In this document: in pieces, positions 13,319 through 50,789 of the stretch
Position numbering within the stretch: the stretch's first letter is position 1
Layout: every line of letters starts with the position of its first letter
NCBI RefSeq assembly: GCF_017876575.1
Contig: NZ_JAGIOE010000001.1
Span: 3,948,443-4,012,442, forward strand
DNA length: 64,000 bases
Direction of reading: 5' to 3'
From: Paeniglutamicibacter psychrophenolicus
GTDB taxonomy: Bacteria; Actinomycetota; Actinomycetes; Actinomycetales; Micrococcaceae
The notes under the pieces: model-generated
The model's database searches: none
Seen by the model: only the letters and a program-made list of their open reading frames with translations
What the model was told of the DNA's origin: nothing
Position numbers and translations under genes: made by a program

Positions 13319-13411
13319 GCTCGCCGCCTTCACGATTCCGCGAGTCAACCCACCAAGAAGCGCTCCCTTTGTCGCTTACATCATCGTGCCTGAAGAAGGT
13401 TGGGAAATGCC

Positions 13412-15748
13412 ATGACTGATCAAGACCTGCGTAACCGTCTCGCGGAATTACTACTACAAGGGCTGGAGGTTGGGACTGGAAAACACGAAGAAGGCGTGGT
13501 GGATGAGGTCTTCCGCGCCTTTGGGCTCAATTGGAACGACATAGATGCTGCCGTGTCACCCAAGAAACTTAATCGCGCGGAGGTCCTGCAAAAGTCGGCT
13601 GCCGCGCAGTTGGCAAAGGCTGCCCCGTCAGCAGAAGATCTGCTCAACGCTGTGGTCCGATGCGGCGGACGATTCGTGTCAATGCTAGACGAGGTCTTTA
13701 CCCGGCTTGCGCAGCACAGCACGTCGACCTCCGGCACCTCGGACACGTTCCGGTTGAAGCGAAGCGGTGTCGACGAATCGAGCCTGACAATCAGTCCTGG
13801 CTTCCTGGAACGCGTGCACCACCTCATGGAAGTGCTCCAGCACATTCCCGTGGGTGTGATGGACGAGCAAGCGCTCAAGTCATTTACGCGCTGGGACAAT
13901 GGCGTGTCATACGGACGCTGGCCCATAAACGACGACCACGATGACAGGCTCGTCAATGCAGTACTGGATCTGGCGTGGGTTGGCCCACTCGTCCGACAGC
14001 GTGCGGAAGCCGATCCGGGTTGGACACCTGCCCTCATCCTTTGGAATCAAGCCCACGAAGCTGCCGCACTTCTTACCAATGCGGCAGAAGGACTTGTGCG
14101 ATCGCACGCTGCACATCTGGACATGCTTGCTGGCTTGGATATTGCGGAAGCAGCCAGGGAAGTCTTCGGCGACGGTGTTGCCGACAGGCAAGAAAACTAT
14201 CTTCTGGAAGAAATTGAGCGCTTCCGTGCGGAACGCACATTCTGGATTACGGCGTGTCCCGGCCTTGTGCTGACCATCGACCAGGTTTCAACAATCGGAT
14301 TGGGGGACGATCTCGAAGTTTCAAAGCGCCCTGCGGAACATTACTACTATGGCTCGGGAGTCAGCGACCTCGCAGGCTTTGTGGCGATGCGGAAACTGCA
14401 GATATGGGCGGAGAATCAACGTCCTGAAACCGAGCAGCGGATCTTCCAAGATCCGGCCGCACTGGAAGACTGGTTATCTTGGGTGGCCTCGTCATGCCAG
14501 GAGGCCACCGCCTGGCTGGAAAATGACGTCCTCGAAGCAACCTCTGAAATCGACTTTTCCAAACGGATCGAAGCCATTGAGGAGTTCTTGAATCTGCCTC
14601 TGTGGAAACAGCGCGATTTGCTCTACGAAGTTTGGCTCCTATGTGCCACTCTCGATGCCTGCGAAGACGCTGCCTGGGAAGTGGAGCTGAGCTTGCTGCC
14701 CTCGGTAGATGGCGCATGGGTCCTATCGGTCGGGCCTGCCAATTCACCGGTTGCCAGGATACATATGGGTACCGACAAAACAGTGATTCTCGATGTTTGG
14801 CGCGAACCCATGCGCACTGCGGATTCGGGGATTCTCACACCAGACCTTGCAATATCCACACCACCACCCTACGTCCGAGATCTCTTCGTTGTGGAAGCGA
14901 AGGACCGCATAAAGATGACGGTTGGAAAGCCTCTTGAAGCAGATGCGTCGCTGGATCAAACGAAGCTCGGCCGCAAGACGGCACTGGGTGTTGCCCAACG
15001 ATATGCGATTGGCCTGCATCCCATCGCAACGTGGATCTGCAACCACTGCGATTTTCGCCAAGACTCCGACCCCTGCCACAACCATGGCGATGCCTGGACG
15101 AGCATCCATCTCGCAGACCAATTTCGCCCGGGCCACGTGCCCGAAGGCTTCAAGCAGTCGCTCAGGATTGCTTTGTCGCCTGCCCCGGGTACGATGGCTG
15201 GGCCCGCGACCGAGCCATCTCAGATACCCGGACTCGTGCTGGTGGTCGATGTCACCGGAAGCATGCACTCTCGGATCGACTCGGCGTTCTCGACGTTTGG
15301 CAACGTGGAAGCATTTCCTTTCAAGGAATTCCGAGTCGTCCTGTTCAGTGACCATGGGCAGAACGAACCGTTCCTGGTTCGCAAGCTGGGTCCCTTTCCC
15401 GCGATGACGCAGCTGGCCGACAGCATTGGTGTCCAGCCCCGCGGGTCCGGCGGGGACATTGATGAAGCGCTGGAGGATGCGATGCAACGGTGCAAAGAGA
15501 TTGTTGAAGACATCGGACCGCAGACCGTTCTCGTACTTACCGACGCTCCACCTCATTCGGCCGTGGCCTGCCCCTACCAGATTGATTTCTCCGCCGAAGT
15601 CCAGGCCCTGCTCGCTTTCGGTTGCCGGATATTGGTCGCCAATGACTGGCTGGACCCCAACAATCGCACATGGTCTGGGTTTGTCGATCATCCTGATTTC
15701 CGTCTGGCTCCACTGGCGGACCTGGTTGCCGGGTGGAAGCGCCAGTAG
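13412..15748 (+). CDS. Large protein with PD-(D/E)xK nuclease-like site, Cys/His cluster and C-terminal vWA domain
   Basis: A 778-aa protein with no named family that I recognise. Residues 1-400 are mostly helical and contain few clues. At 404-500, LLYEVWLLCATLDACE is followed by a beta-rich stretch, then TPDLAI (Asp478) and FVVEAKDR (Glu495, Lys497): the spacing of a PD-(D/E)xK active site, in the McrC/DUF2357-like order. CNHC (543, 546) and CHNH (555-558) could bind zinc. From 607 comes a vWA domain: VVDVTGS (MIDAS Asp613, Thr615, Ser617), GGDIDEALEDA (Asp682) and VLTDAPPH (Asp711), most like the vwkA/alpha-kinase type. No signal peptide. Start: ATG 13412, preceded by GGGA; a TTG lies four codons upstream. 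Base composition is visibly less GC-rich than the flanks, suggesting transfer. The nuclease assignment rests on motif spacing only. Confidence 0.7.
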   Translation: MTDQDLRNRLAELLLQGLEVGTGKHEEGVVDEVFRAFGLNWNDIDAAVSPKKLNRAEVLQKSAAAQLAKAAPSAEDLLNAVVRCGGRFVSMLDEVFTRLAQHSTSTSGTSDTFRLKRSGVDESSLTISPGFLERVHHLMEVLQHIPVGVMDEQALKSFTRWDNGVSYGRWPINDDHDDRLVNAVLDLAWVGPLVRQRAEADPGWTPALILWNQAHEAAALLTNAAEGLVRSHAAHLDMLAGLDIAEAAREVFGDGVADRQENYLLEEIERFRAERTFWITACPGLVLTIDQVSTIGLGDDLEVSKRPAEHYYYGSGVSDLAGFVAMRKLQIWAENQRPETEQRIFQDPAALEDWLSWVASSCQEATAWLENDVLEATSEIDFSKRIEAIEEFLNLPLWKQRDLLYEVWLLCATLDACEDAAWEVELSLLPSVDGAWVLSVGPANSPVARIHMGTDKTVILDVWREPMRTADSGILTPDLAISTPPPYVRDLFVVEAKDRIKMTVGKPLEADASLDQTKLGRKTALGVAQRYAIGLHPIATWICNHCDFRQDSDPCHNHGDAWTSIHLADQFRPGHVPEGFKQSLRIALSPAPGTMAGPATEPSQIPGLVLVVDVTGSMHSRIDSAFSTFGNVEAFPFKEFRVVLFSDHGQNEPFLVRKLGPFPAMTQLADSIGVQPRGSGGDIDEALEDAMQRCKEIVEDIGPQTVLVLTDAPPHSAVACPYQIDFSAEVQALLAFGCRILVANDWLDPNNRTWSGFVDHPDFRLAPLADLVAGWKRQ

Positions 15749-15770
15749 CGGCCACAGGGCTTCCACCCGG
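15729..15770. terminator. 12-bp hairpin spanning the end of the vWA gene
   Basis: CCGGGTGGAAGC (15729-15740) and GCTTCCACCCGG (15759-15770) are a perfect inverted repeat with an 18-nt loop that contains the vWA stop codon. There is no T-run after it on either strand. It lies between two convergent genes and probably ends or insulates transcription. Confidence 0.55.
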
Positions 15771-15825
15771 AAGACTCGGCATGGCCGACGGAAGCCGCGC
15801 GGTCCCGGCTTCCGGCCTGATCGGC

Positions 15826-17190
15826 CTACAGCTTGAGCGCGTCGAGCAGCATCGTGTTTGCGTCCCGCGTTCCTGTTACGTCATCCAGCTGTTTACGGCG
15901 TGCCCTGTCTGCGCTTGGCCGCCCGGGATCGCACGACCAGTAGTGGGTGTGCGGCTTGAGCAGCAACTTGTAGATGGTGGCCCTCCATCCACCGAGCGAA
16001 AGGCGGACCGGGATGTCACGAACGCCCGGGCCGAATTCGGAGGCGATCGGTCCGCCGACCGGATCGCCCAAGGAAGCGAACCGCACGGGAAAGTAGAGGT
16101 TCGTCCAGCGGGTCGGCCCGAACGATGCATCATGCTTTCCCACCTTCAAGGTGGAGAATTGCTCGTTGATTTGGTACTTGATGTCAACAAACGTCGTAGA
16201 TCGCTCGGCCAAGGGCGGACATTGGGGATACTCCCCCTCGCGCTGACGCTGTTTGAGCTTTACCGAACGGGTATCGAGAAGCAGGGAGGCATGGGCCAGG
16301 GGTGACCCTAGCGTGACGAAGTCCGTCACCAGCCAGGGAACGCCCAGTGCACGGTTTTCACACCACAGTCGGTGTTGCCTCTGCTGAAAATCCGCAAGGT
16401 CCTTGGCTCCGCTTGAGCCGTCGAGTGCCGTTGCGCACTTGTCGAACGCTTTCGCTTCGGTTTGCTTGACTCGGAAGTTGGAATCGTTCAGGAGTGCGGG
16501 GTTGGGGTGGCGTAGTTCGTCCCATGCCAAACGGATCAGGTCGATTCCAATCACACTACCCAAGCTGTGGCCCACAAGAACGACCCGGTCGTAGTCTCCA
16601 TCCTCATGAAGTTTCTTGAGCAATGTCAGCCCATCGGCGCGGATTCTGTTTCTTGCAGCCACGTTCCGAGGGTGAGGAGTCAGATAGCGTGCAGCATCCG
16701 CCAATGAACCGGTGATGAACCAACCTGAACCCAACACTCCGAGCAGCAGCGCACCGGAAATGCCAACAAGCCAATAGAGCTCTGTCGCCGCCAAAGCTTC
16801 GGACCCCACCAGTCTGGCGATCAGCACACCAACGATACTCGCGAGCAGGGCCCCTGCTATCTGGATCATGCCGACCACACCGCGCAACGTCTTGTCCAGC
16901 CGCCAGAAAAATTGCCGAGTGATCAGGCGGGCGGCCCATCGGAGAGTCTCAAGGATCTTCCCCGATTCAAAGTGATGAGCCCAGTACAGCTCGTAGCAAT
17001 CGGTGATAGGGCGATTGCTGTTGCTTGGCAACGTATAACGTCGCAATTCAAGTGAGTCGGACAGCCGATCCGGCTTGTTGTAATACTTCTTTTCCCCCAG
17101 TCCGGCAACGAAACTCCGGAGTGTATCCATCGGCCGCTGCTCACCTATTCCGTGAATCAGAACGATGGCCTGTCGCTTTTTGCTGTCCAT
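15826..17190 (-). CDS. Membrane-anchored alpha/beta hydrolase (lipase-like)
   Basis: A 454-aa protein starting MDSKKRQAIVLIHGIGEQRPMDTL. HGIGEQ forms the usual oxyanion strand-turn, and VVLVGHSLGSVIGIDLI carries the nucleophile elbow (Ser209). DFVTLGSPLAHA follows, as in PGAP1-like and class 3-like lipases; the His in KPHTHYW may complete the triad. Two membrane helices interrupt the fold at about 104-126 and 137-162, so the enzyme is probably membrane bound. The substrate is unknown; lipid or ester hydrolysis is likely. Start: ATG 17188-17190 with GGGAG nine bases before it; a GTG lies six codons upstream. It is convergent with the vWA gene and shares its lower GC, so the two may have arrived together. 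Confidence 0.75.
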   Translation of the reverse strand: MDSKKRQAIVLIHGIGEQRPMDTLRSFVAGLGEKKYYNKPDRLSDSLELRRYTLPSNSNRPITDCYELYWAHHFESGKILETLRWAARLITRQFFWRLDKTLRGVVGMIQIAGALLASIVGVLIARLVGSEALAATELYWLVGISGALLLGVLGSGWFITGSLADAARYLTPHPRNVAARNRIRADGLTLLKKLHEDGDYDRVVLVGHSLGSVIGIDLIRLAWDELRHPNPALLNDSNFRVKQTEAKAFDKCATALDGSSGAKDLADFQQRQHRLWCENRALGVPWLVTDFVTLGSPLAHASLLLDTRSVKLKQRQREGEYPQCPPLAERSTTFVDIKYQINEQFSTLKVGKHDASFGPTRWTNLYFPVRFASLGDPVGGPIASEFGPGVRDIPVRLSLGGWRATIYKLLLKPHTHYWSCDPGRPSADRARRKQLDDVTGTRDANTMLLDALKL

Positions 17191-17664
17191 TTGAGCATTC
17201 TCCCACACGCAAATTCAGGCCTGGGGAATTGCCTGGCTCCTCGAACCGAATGCTGCGCTCGCCCAACCAGGAGCATCGTGCCAGTGATGTAACTCCGACC
17301 GCGGTCGACGGGTTGTTCGGTGTTGTTTCATGATTCGTGCCGACGAAGACCCTAACCTGTGAAGGAGCCACCCGAGTCCGTATATCGGAGTTCCCGGCGT
17401 CTTCACAGCGCAGTGTCCCGGTGGCCGGTACCGTTCCGACCCGACAGGAATATCTGGACCACCGCGCCCTGTCATTGGGGACCATCCCGTAGTCCCTTCA
17501 AACTACGGCAGGTCGGGGCTGGTGATTCGCTGGGTCGGCCCCATTCTCCGGCAATGCCGGGCTCGACAACGAGATAGCCGTGCAATGGTATCCGGCCACA
17601 AACAATCCCGGTGGCCCGGCGACCTACGCGTACAGAACGGCCTGCTTGGCACGTGCGCCCGAGC
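17191..17664. other. 474-nt region upstream of the hydrolase gene, no gene
   Basis: No coding sequence is supported. A small perfect hairpin, CCGTAGT (17487-17493) with ACTACGG (17502-17508), lies in the middle. The region must hold the hydrolase promoter and marks the right border of the lower-GC segment. No integrase, IR or att-like repeat was recognised. Confidence 0.5.
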
Positions 17665-18156
17665 CTATGCGCCTGGAACCTCTGGCATCTTGTGCCTGGC
17701 CAGCCACCACAGGCCGATCAGCGGCAGCACCAGCGGCACGTAGCCGTAGCCGGAACCGAAGTGCGACCACACCGCCGGATGGGCAAAGAGCGCGGGCAGC
17801 ACGAAGCTGAGCGTGCCCACCACCAGCACGCCGACCAGCTCGAAGAGCACCGCGTACCAGGAGAGCCTCCAGCTGCCGGGCTTCTTGGAGGCCAGCGCGA
17901 GGGTCGCGACGATGTACACGGCACCCGCCAGCGCGCTGAGCAGGTAGGCCAGCGGAGCCGCACCAAAATCCAGCAGGATCTGGTAGACGGCACGGACCGT
18001 GGCCGAGAGCGCCAGCACCCCGTACACGGCGATGATGATCCGGCCCAGGCCCGAGGATCGCCCGCCGTTGGAGCGCACCGGCTTGTTGCTGTCCTTGCGG
18101 TTCGCCGCATCCACGATGCGCGAACGCTTCACCGGATTTTTTCCTTGCTCGCTCAT
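17665..18156 (-). CDS. Small integral membrane protein, function unknown
   Basis: A 163-aa protein, MSEQGKNPVKRSRIVDAANRK..., with a polar basic N terminus of about 45 residues and then four hydrophobic segments (IIIAVYGVLALSATVRAVY; LAYLLSALAGAVYIVATLAL; VLFELVGVLVVGTLSFVLPAL; VPLVLPLIGLWWLA). The ATG at 18154-18156 overlaps the stop of the upstream membrane gene as ATGA, so the two are co-translated. I recognise it only as a conserved actinobacterial membrane protein found near truB. No catalytic motif is visible. Confidence 0.75.
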   Translation of the reverse strand: MSEQGKNPVKRSRIVDAANRKDSNKPVRSNGGRSSGLGRIIIAVYGVLALSATVRAVYQILLDFGAAPLAYLLSALAGAVYIVATLALASKKPGSWRLSWYAVLFELVGVLVVGTLSFVLPALFAHPAVWSHFGSGYGYVPLVLPLIGLWWLARHKMPEVPGA

Positions 18157-47898: not shown

Positions 47899-48305
47899 GG
47901 GAAAACCCACCCTTCGAATATGCTTCAAACATACTCCGGCAAGCGGGTCCCGGCAGAAGGCCCGGACCGATTCATTGACATAAGTAGGCGGAGGCCAAGC
48001 AACCACGCGCCTTGCCCACTACGTTCTCGTCAACAGGATCTACTGCCCCAGACTTGACCAGCGCTGGCCGAACCCGCCAGTAAAGTACGAAAATCAATAT
48101 CCGACGCTTCACAACGCCTGCCGGTGGTTCAATCGTGAGCCATCTCATCAGGGTGCGGCGGTTGCCACACCGATGAGCCTTTCGCTCCCGTTTGATGAGG
48201 CGGGATAGTCGGCGATCAAGGTGTCAATCATCAAAGCCTCCACATGCGATCGCACCAGGATCCCGGTATTGTCAGCCGAGGTTGGGTGCTGCAGACTGGG
48301 GAGCA
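47899..48305. other. 407-nt intergenic region in the toxin-antitoxin-rich segment
   Basis: No gene is supported. It holds divergent promoters for the antitoxin-like and HicA-like genes. TATG and CATA around CTTCAAA near 47918-47932 make a small inverted repeat. The sequence is visibly less GC-rich than the core genes on either side. Confidence 0.45.
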
Positions 48306-48575
48306 ATGTCGAACGAGTGGATTCCCAAGGCGTCGAGCGTTGCCAGGGAATTGAAACCAGAGGTGTACGCCGCTGTGCGCCAACTGATGGAAAAGGGCTG
48401 GCGTCTTCGGCGACAAGGCCACAAGTTCTATTTGTACTGACCCTGTCCTCCGCCTTTTCATAGCAAGATTCGTATCGATGGCACACCGAAGAGTCCAGCG
48501 CGGCATGCCCGGACCGTCCTCAGGGAAGCAGCCAAATGCCCCGATCATCTGATCGAACGAAGTCTAGATTCCTAG
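48306..48575 (+). pseudogene. HicA-like small protein interrupted by an in-frame TGA
   Basis: ATG 48306 opens MSNEWIPKASSVARELKPEV, then YAAVRQLMEKGWRLRRQGHKFYLY, followed by TGA (48438-48440). The same frame continues with PCPPPFHSKIRIDGTPKSPA, then RHARTVLREAAKCPDHLIE, to TAG at 48573-48575. The GW.LRRQGHKFYLY-[C]PC... I.GTP.. layout is that of a HicA-like double-stranded-RNA-binding fold, and family context predicts Cys where TGA stands (a TGC to TGA change). Both halves keep coding character, so the mutation is recent or the codon is read through. No hairpin suited to a bacterial SECIS follows. The HTH-protein gene starts 60 nt downstream. Confidence 0.65.
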
Positions 48576-48635
48576 CCGTTTCCATTTGACAACGGGCTCG
48601 AGTGGTTGCCTACTGGGAACTGAAGGAAAGCACAA

Positions 48636-49196
48636 ATGTCCAGCACTTACGAACTGCAGCTTGAGATAGTTGCTCCGGCAGAATCGCAGTTAGAGGCAGC
48701 GGAAAACGACGTCGAACTCGTATATTCCGCGCACGGCCCGACCCACTTCTTGACGATTTGGCAAGAAGCGGCGACACCGTTGAGTGCCGCGATGATCGCA
48801 GTTGCCCACTTGCGAAAATCCGGCATCAAGGTTCAACGCGCAGTCGAAGATCTTGTCAGCAGGCAAGATATCGCAGACCGCCTCAGCGTGTCACGGCAAG
48901 CCGTGGGCAACTGGATACGAGGGGAACGCCGAGGCAGCGAGGGTGAAGAGTTCCCATCTCCCTACAACCTCGTCGGCGGCGGAGTATGGCTATGGAAGGA
49001 CGTGAACGACTGGGCGCGCGGAATCGCTGCAACCGACAATGAAGTGGAACATCTGGCAGCAATCGACTATATGCTCATCAATCACTGGATCTACCATGAC
49101 GATCTGGGCGTCTTGAACCCAAGCTTCATGAAGGAAATTCAGGATCCCGACGCCGCCTCACAGGCTACCGACGGGATTCAATTTCATTCTCTTTGA
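48636..49196 (+). CDS. HTH protein, probable partner of the HicA-like gene
   Basis: A 186-aa protein. Residues 1-68 (YELQLEIVAPAESQLEAAEND and THFLTIWQEAATPLSAAMIAVAHLRKSGIKVQR) look like an alpha/beta, partly HicB-like domain. The helix-turn-helix follows: VEDLVSRQDIADRLSVSRQAVGNWIRGERRG. The rest (YNLVGGGVWLWKDVNDWARG...) is helical and of unknown role. A small RNase-like gene followed by a DNA-binding gene fits a toxin-antitoxin pair. AAGGAAAG precedes the ATG. Family assignment beyond HTH is inference. Confidence 0.6.
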   Translation: MSSTYELQLEIVAPAESQLEAAENDVELVYSAHGPTHFLTIWQEAATPLSAAMIAVAHLRKSGIKVQRAVEDLVSRQDIADRLSVSRQAVGNWIRGERRGSEGEEFPSPYNLVGGGVWLWKDVNDWARGIAATDNEVEHLAAIDYMLINHWIYHDDLGVLNPSFMKEIQDPDAASQATDGIQFHSL

Positions 49197-49409: not shown

Positions 49410-50789
49410 TCAGCCGAAAATGGACACAGGCTTCACGATATCGGCGTAGATCAGCACCGCACCCATGACCATCATGCCGACCGCGACCACGTAGGTCAGT
49501 GGCAGCATCTTGGCGATGTCCACCGGCCCCGGATCCGGGCGCTTGAAGAGCTTGGCGACGAACCGGCGCACCGATTCGAAGAGCGCACCGACCACGTGCC
49601 CGCCATCCAGCGGCAGCAGCGGGATCAGGTTGAAGACGAACAACGCGATGTTCAGCCCGCCGATCAACGAGAACATCGAAGCGACCTTGTCCGCCACCCC
49701 GATCTGGTCCATCGCGCTGATCTCCCCGGCGATGCGTCCCACGCCCACCACGGAGATCGGACCGTTGGGGTCGCGCGGTGCATCACTGAAGGCGGCCTTG
49801 CCGACCGCTGCAACACGCGCCGGCAAATCGAGCACCACGGCGGTGACGCCCTTGAGCTGGGTGCCCACCGCGGGCAGCACCGAGGAGATCGGCTGGGAAA
49901 TGTTTTCCACCTTCGAGCCCATGCCGATGAAGCCGACCTCGACGGTCTCGCGCTTGCCCGAGGCGTCGGTGACGACCTGGCCCTGGTCGTTGATCAGCGG
50001 ACGCTCGGTCTTGTAGGGGGTGATGGACGTGGAGTGCTCCACCCCGTCGCGCTCAAAGGTCAGCGGGACCGATTCGCCCGCATGGCCGCGGATGGCCTGG
50101 GTCAGCGGCACCCAGTCCGTGTTGCCGACCGGCTTGCCGTCGAAGGAGGTGATCGTGTCCCCGGGGCGCAGGCCCGCGGCGTAGGCCGGGCCGGGTGCGT
50201 CCGAGGGCAGGCAGCCGTTGTTGACCGAGGCGTCCCGGGTGGTTTCCTGCCCCAGGGGCACCACGCACTGGTAGACCTCGTCGACGGTGCTGGTCTGGGT
50301 GGGCATGCCGAAGCCGACGGTGACGATGCCGACCATCACGATGCCGATCAGCAGGTTCATCACCGGGCCGCCGAGCATGATGATGATGCGCTTGTAGACC
50401 GGAAGCTTGTAGAACAGCCGGTTCTCGTCCCCGGGCTGCAGCTGCTCGGCCGCCGCGTGCCGGGCCTCGTCGGCCATCTGCTGGAACATGCCGGTAGAGG
50501 ACTTGCGCAGGATCGGGGCGTCGGTGGCGCCCACGACGCCCTTGTTCTTCGCCGGCGGGTACATCCCGATCATGGAGATGTAGCCGCCCAGCGGGATGGC
50601 CTTGAAACCGTATTCGGTGTCCCCGCGTTTGAAGGACCACAGCGTCTTGCCGAAGCCGATCATGTACTGGGGCACGCGCACGCCGAAGCGCTTGGCCGGG
50701 ATCAGGTGCCCGACCTCGTGCAGGCCGATGGACACGCCGACGGCGACGACCATGACCAGCACGCCGAGGATGAAAAGAAGGATGCTCAC
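49410..50789 (-). CDS. rseP: Site-2 protease RseP/Rip1-type zinc metalloprotease
   Basis: A 459-aa intramembrane protease (M50). HEVGH at residues 24-28 in the first helix provides the zinc ligands, and [16 protein letters not shown] near the C terminus provides the third. One PDZ domain is visible ([22 protein letters not shown]). It cuts anti-sigma factors or other membrane proteins within the bilayer. The start is GTG 50787-50789, overlapping the dxr stop as GTGA. It is one gene in dxr-rseP-(ispG), here without ispG directly after it. Confidence 0.94.

Follow-up and report, generated by a model that had tools for sequence, protein, structure and literature searches.

P0001, a protein encoded in the window (the whole 64-kb stretch of DNA analysed, from a soil-type bacterium), combines a PD-(D/E)xK-type nuclease core with a C-terminal vWA domain and, judging from its sequence, belongs to a family rather than being a one-off. 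We consider it fairly probable that this nuclease family, hitherto undescribed, is an accessory and horizontally mobile component of bacterial defence islands, the mechanism outlined below included. The analysis supports the existence of the family, the conservation of its motifs, the acquisition of P0001 by insertion and the enrichment of known defence genes around its relatives, and it lends some support to the fold; P0001 itself is presumed to be an active nuclease with a role in phage defence. Because the relatives often adjoin known anti-virus genes, P0001 is probably part of bacterial immunity. More tentatively, the family might be a phylum-spanning group of one-gene antiphage nucleases in which a PD-(D/E)xK engine is kept and the C-terminal recognition module is exchanged, changing the trigger; other bacterial immune proteins likewise exchange effector and sensor parts.

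Recovery of a divergent protein family

The P0001 frame is intact, with a single terminal stop, and its ATG at position 13412 is preceded by the stretch GAAGAAGG; the features of the gene and its surroundings are collected in Table 1. The original prediction had described a 778-residue protein bearing Asp478, Glu495 and Lys497, the cluster CNHC...CHNH, Asp613/Thr615/Ser617, Asp682 and Asp711, all of which occupy the positions given for them, and the presence and order of the nuclease site and the vWA domain in a single chain are borne out by the relatives. In Pfam, P0001 matched VWA_CoxE across residues 607-712 with a score (23.3 bits, E = 4.8e-5) below the curated cut-off of 26.4. Its one NCBIfam match was at chance level (E = 0.022), comparison with PDB sequences gave nothing meaningful (best E = 0.48), and no model of PADLOC-DB 2.0.0 was matched at E <= 5.

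Table 1 Features of the P0001 gene and of the insert that carries it (window positions).
Feature	Position	Strand	Basis
Insertion of 4350 bp, absent from congeners	13334..17683		empty-site comparison, GC
PD-(D/E)xK nuclease-vWA protein P0001, 778 aa	13412..15748	+	translation, HMM, hhalign, alignment
N-terminal module, predicted mostly helical, ~residues 1-380, poorly conserved	13412..14551	+	alignment, models
Helix motif LNLPLWKQRDLLYEVW, residues 393-408	14588..14635	+	residue conservation in 18-sequence alignment
Catalytic-type site TPD...VVEAK, residues 476-497 (Asp478, Glu495, Lys497)	14837..14902	+	18/18 conservation, hhalign
Cys/His cluster CNHC...CHNH, residues 541-559	15032..15088	+	cysteines specific to P0001
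C-terminal vWA domain, residues ~608-778, MIDAS Asp613/Ser617/Asp711	15233..15745	+	sub-cut-off Pfam, shared residues
Alpha/beta-hydrolase-like gene, GHSLGS and hydrophobic stretches	15826..17208	-	weak Pfam below cut-off, motif

As a query on its own, P0001 found no relative in GTDB genome contigs, plasmids, phages or viral contigs, nor in a phylum sample comprising 395 other genomes. A family sample gave matches at E <= 1 in 27 of its 394 other genomes, and the matches examined were either vWA-only proteins (L002, L003) or judged to be chance. In an order sample (396 genomes), matches at E <= 0.01 came from four other genomes, and one of these was a true relative; the remaining matches were a vWA-only protein (L055) and two judged to be chance (L056, L058). 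A plasmid match (E = 4) to a caspase-family gene of Stanieria was likewise attributed to chance, and the viral collection gave no match to a P0001 fragment or to A1-A3, query alignments that had been made degenerate artificially.

The first true relative is a 630-residue protein of Georgenia satyanarayanai (E = 0.004, residues 382-471), which bears SLPLWGRRHELYSAW, VQPDYQF and AVEVKQY and can be aligned with P0001. Used as a query, it led to rhizobial plasmid proteins (E = 1e-19 to 2e-17). A five-member alignment searched against the remaining genome contigs recovered 13 loci, i.e. Georgenia again and 12 others, from Flavobacterium, Pedobacter, Spartobacteria, Pseudohongiella, Pseudomonas koreensis, Rhizobium, Brevundimonas, Novosphingobium, Rhodoplanes, Mesorhizobium, Phyllobacterium and one unclassified bin. 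A further search added a protein encoded on a Lysinibacillus plasmid, where it is annotated as 'vWA domain-containing protein' (E = 7e-19).

When P0001 was left out and an HMM was built from 16 relatives, P0001 scored 41.5 bits (E = 4.2e-9 for a million sequences), whereas none of 200 shuffled versions of it exceeded 1.9 bits and the score of the reversed sequence was negative. Comparison of the P0001 nuclease region with the family by hhalign gave a probability of 97.6% (E = 4.6e-12) and paired TPD...VVEAK of P0001 with QPD...VVEVK of the family; the controls (the reversed sequence and truB) gave ~0.1%. Across the nuclease core, P0001 and its relatives are 22-30% identical.

The original prediction knew of no named family with such a domain order, and none came to light in the libraries or the literature searched. 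The family has no name in Pfam (P0001 and ten relatives) or in NCBIfam, and the ten relatives matched no model of PADLOC-DB 2.0.0 (2023) at E <= 1. In PHROGs, two of 13 members matched one unnamed family, phrog_1735 (E = 1e-5), and no name was found otherwise. The literature search, with most subscription journals outside its scope, returned no description of a nuclease-vWA family.

Conservation of the nuclease core and variation of the C-terminal module

Conservation was assessed in an alignment of 18 sequences, P0001 and 17 relatives, from which the CCGE531 copy (~95% identical to that of NGR234) and two truncated rhizobial copies were left out. All 18 sequences are identical at ten of the positions checked (P396, W398, R401, Y405, W408, P477, D478, E495, K497 and Y531), so that the PD-(D/E)xK active-site residues P477, D478, E495 and K497 are conserved family-wide. 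L395 is kept in 16 of the 18 members, and 17 of them have Glu at another acidic position, E465. The set of motifs is thus not a product of chance, given these 18/18 identities and the leave-one-out score of P0001 relative to its shuffles. The helix preceding the site had been described as being of the YExW type; its Tyr and Trp are indeed invariant, but Glu406 is common to P0001 and the Lysinibacillus protein only.

The C-terminal part varies. Ten of the 17 relatives carry a C-terminal vWA domain (DxSxS and a late Asp), and seven have a different tail. The vWA domain of P0001 had been called complete; D613, S617 and D711 are common to P0001 and all ten vWA-tailed relatives, Asp682 is not conserved, and position 615 is Thr in P0001 and Ser in the ten relatives. 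The Cys/His cluster is present in P0001 as described but was rejected as a family feature: none of the 17 relatives has Cys at columns 543, 546 or 555, the cysteines being confined to the window protein, and His545 of the cluster is common to six of the 17.

The seven relatives without vWA (L072, L076, L077, L078, L080, L059 and L061) share a conserved tail, L-W...D-L...D...E...W, which from its sequence we take to be strand-rich and to resemble DUF2135/YfaP; the six of the seven that were scanned gave no Pfam match to DUF2135/YfaP. With L077 as query, plasmid records yielded a Deinococcus VWD-domain protein (query residues 436-665, E = 1e-9) and an Arsenophonus invasin-type protein (query residues 535-662, E = 6e-18); this tail therefore occurs in other proteins as well. 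Since the C-terminal module is exchanged among the relatives, it is likely to be the recognition part.

Insertion, distribution and defence neighbours

The window copy of P0001 is chromosome-borne (on a 4.8-Mb contig). In the closest congener (G444, locus L036), collinear DNA of ~95-96% identity runs to window position 13333 and resumes at 17684, with 144 bp (L036 7235-7378) in place of the 4350-bp insert. Both the P0001 gene and the hydrolase gene are absent from the insert site in all 13 same-genus loci located via truB (a 14th congener, G613, was left out of this count), in line with the mobile acquisition that had been proposed. The low GC content noted earlier is also real: 0.585 in the insert vs. 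0.659 in the rest of the window, where none of 553 equally long windows is as low. At third codon positions, GC is 0.63 in the nuclease gene vs. 0.77-0.89 in infB, the narG-like gene and truB. No terminal or bracketing repeat of at least 14 nt was found at the insert ends, no tRNA within the 64-kb window, and no integrase was recognised by eye in the setting of the insert.

Some further observations concern the surrounding DNA. The empty-site stretch of the congener contains, by eye, an inverted repeat, GAGCCGGGTTTC/GAAACCCGGCTC, perhaps a terminator. Between the hydrolase gene and the right junction, ~475 bp of the insert (17209-17683) hold no convincing gene. Elsewhere in the window, a second stretch of low GC (48001-49000, 0.567) may be another small insert; it contains a 186-aa frame (48636-49196) with a DNA-binding-like segment by eye, adjoined by a frame (49410-50789) that resembles a site-2 protease.

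The nuclease gene and the alpha/beta-hydrolase-like gene are the only two genes recognised in the insert. A two-gene operon was ruled out because the two genes are convergent and the relatives of the hydrolase are unlinked: proteins 40% identical to it occur in two of 58 other genomes searched, both without a P0001 match, and lie at other loci in these two congeners. Whether the hydrolase is cargo of the insert or a partner of the nuclease is left undecided. By eye, a patatin-like gene overlaps the start of the Pedobacter relative (L074 7104-9011), and the Novosphingobium relative is immediately preceded by a DUF2235-like hydrolase (L078 7824-8906).

The family is rare and patchy in its distribution. 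The nuclease part was found in three of 297 genomes of the order, the window's own included (four of the seven matches covered the vWA part only and were not counted as members), and in one of 197 genomes of a class sample, again the window's own; ten other genomes have one family gene each. Six relatives are on plasmid records, and four of these plasmids are typed as conjugative. A pattern search of IMG/VR found no family member, and none of the four queries tried found a relative in phages.

Nine of the 19 loci of relatives (13 from the genome-contig scan and six plasmid loci, G988 being outside the count) contain defence genes, those of NGR234, CCGE531 and WSM419 sharing one related island. 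According to PADLOC, IetA and IetS lie near the Rhizobium leguminosarum TP16 copy; IetS, a Dsr1-like SIR2 protein and a short pAgo with its TIR partner near the CCGE531 copy; and LmuB close to that of Phyllobacterium. The genes of the CCGE531 locus recur at that of NGR234 with 95-99% identity. Also by PADLOC, the Spartobacteria copy is adjoined by SIR2 and HerA, the Flavobacterium copy by PDC-M62A/B and PDC-S26, and the Brevundimonas copy by PDC-S06. Annotation, not PADLOC, places nucleotidyltransferase, E2 and Mov34 genes in the vicinity of the Lysinibacillus copy and, in WSM419, SIR2 and TIR genes close to the truncated copy. The other ten loci, among them L077, of which the analysis covered a small part, are without a clear defence system. 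In the window, PADLOC was applied to P0001 and the hydrolase alone, with no match for either, and no defence neighbour is known for this copy.

A survey of the neighbours of homologues, which the original prediction had proposed, found known defence genes to be enriched. The first PADLOC scan covered twenty neighbour proteins picked by eye; the Pedobacter patatin-like protein, the Novosphingobium hydrolase and a 1209-aa Pseudomonas protein were unmatched, and several others matched weakly. In a control scan at E <= 1e-15, restricted to ORFs of at least 230 aa, 79 PADLOC models (the first 25 of these were listed) were matched for 68 ORFs in the central 16 kb of nine family loci vs. two for 78 control ORFs in nine regions elsewhere in the same genomes (L070, L076, L077 and L078 were left out). 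Counted by hand as distinct defence proteins, this corresponds to ~9/68 vs. 2/78 (Fisher p = 0.024; p = 0.045 with 8/68), linkage being ignored. Per protein, the enrichment near the relatives is therefore modest. Taken together, the invariant residues, the sporadic distribution, the occurrence on plasmids and in an insert, and the defence neighbours of the relatives fit an accessory immune nuclease.

Variation among these neighbourhoods also bears on a different reading, namely that the protein is an accessory subunit that supplies a nuclease to a co-travelling defence core (e.g. IetAS in rhizobia), with the vWA domain docking. Three rhizobial relatives have an S8 peptidase gene in their vicinity, two of them together with an IetA-like AAA gene, and vWA domains are commonly docking domains, a role that would suit such a subunit. 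However, the neighbouring systems vary by locus, and S8 and AAA queries were without a match in the remaining loci searched. Nor is the orientation constant, the genes being convergent in TP16 but on one strand in CCGE531 and Flavobacterium, and the window copy is without a recognised partner. We regard a dependent subunit as rather unlikely. Less probable still is a function in the maintenance of mobile elements, i.e. a plasmid or island nuclease that excludes or outcompetes other elements, with the defence genes as fellow passengers; the rhizobial and Lysinibacillus plasmids would suit it, as would the RepC/ParB-like genes seen by eye near the Mesorhizobium relative, whereas the insert that carries the window copy is chromosomal, small and holds just two recognised genes, and the phage and viral contig collections contained no relative with the queries tried.

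Proposed mechanism, fold and relation to known systems

In the reading we favour, P0001 consists of three parts in one chain: a mostly helical N-terminal module, the PD-(D/E)xK core, predicted to comprise a PxWxxRxxxYxxW helix followed by PD and ExK, and a C-terminal module. The terminal modules may recognise an infection cue or a partner protein, the vWA domain probably making contact through its metal-dependent MIDAS surface. Recognition would switch on metal-dependent DNA cleavage by Asp478, Glu495 and Lys497, and either the invading DNA would be destroyed or the infected cell killed.

Structural comparison was based on the relative L079, modelled with a 13-sequence alignment (pLDDT 81.8); the single-sequence model of P0001 itself was poor (pLDDT 38). 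The N-terminal module is helical for the most part in the L079 model and likewise in the low-confidence model of P0001. The top PDB matches of the L079 model in Foldseek were Cdn1 (9u49, probability 0.99, E = 6e-3) and Can2 (8bao, probability 0.96, E = 1.2e-2), with MspJI and BbvCI lower down, all four of which we take to be PD-(D/E)xK enzymes. The vWA domains of LapA (probability 0.97) and CMG2 (probability 0.91) were matched as well, and the matches also include unrelated folds, e.g. TibC (E = 0.03, probability 0.23). No PDB match reached E = 1e-3, and nothing in a viral structure library was under E = 0.02. That this fold support falls short of the usual E-value threshold would suit a catalytically dead or non-defence protein, either a PD-(D/E)xK-derived DNA-binding scaffold or a housekeeping repair factor, but the PD...ExK site is complete in 18/18 members, the distribution is patchy (3/297 genomes of the order) and congeners have an empty insertion site, and we consider such a protein very improbable.

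The architecture, a PD-(D/E)xK nuclease of defence islands joined to vWA, was not found described. The list of candidates for defence functions gains a nuclease family whose catalytic-type residues are clear, whose alignment can be recovered and in which a domain swap has occurred naturally; the family also provides a definite example with which to examine the role of vWA domains in bacterial immunity. Among known systems, components of IetAS, SIR2-HerA, short pAgo/TIR, Lamassu and CBASS-like systems are found near relatives of P0001, whereas neither P0001 nor the ten relatives fit a PADLOC model for any of these systems. Kinship with McrC, which had been suggested for comparison, was not borne out. 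In both, an aromatic-rich helix precedes the PD...(D/E)xK site (by eye), but the P0001 family has an additional vWA domain, no McrB partner was recognised by eye, the hhalign probability was 0.2% (seven of nine loci were used; L090, on the wrong strand, and L092, partial, were left out), and neither P0001 nor ten relatives matched PF10117. The Pfam model of PDDEXK_7/DUF2357 (PF04411) was also unmatched by P0001 and ten relatives, and that family was found in no genome searched.

The closest structural matches are the CRISPR ancillary nucleases Can2 and Cdn1. There, as presumably in the P0001 family, a regulatory domain is attached to the nuclease core, in the context of defence. Unlike these enzymes, the family has no recognised CARF domain, its profiles match no PDB sequence, and the partners of its nuclease are a helical module and vWA or another tail. 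Inspection by eye revealed neither a kinase nor a phosphatase among the neighbours of the family. The account of CoCoNuT/TerY-P (PMC11090510) places vWA proteins and PD-(D/E)xK nucleases within one defence system; there, a TerY-like vWA protein forms a triad with a phosphatase and a kinase, whereas in P0001 vWA and nuclease are united in one chain.
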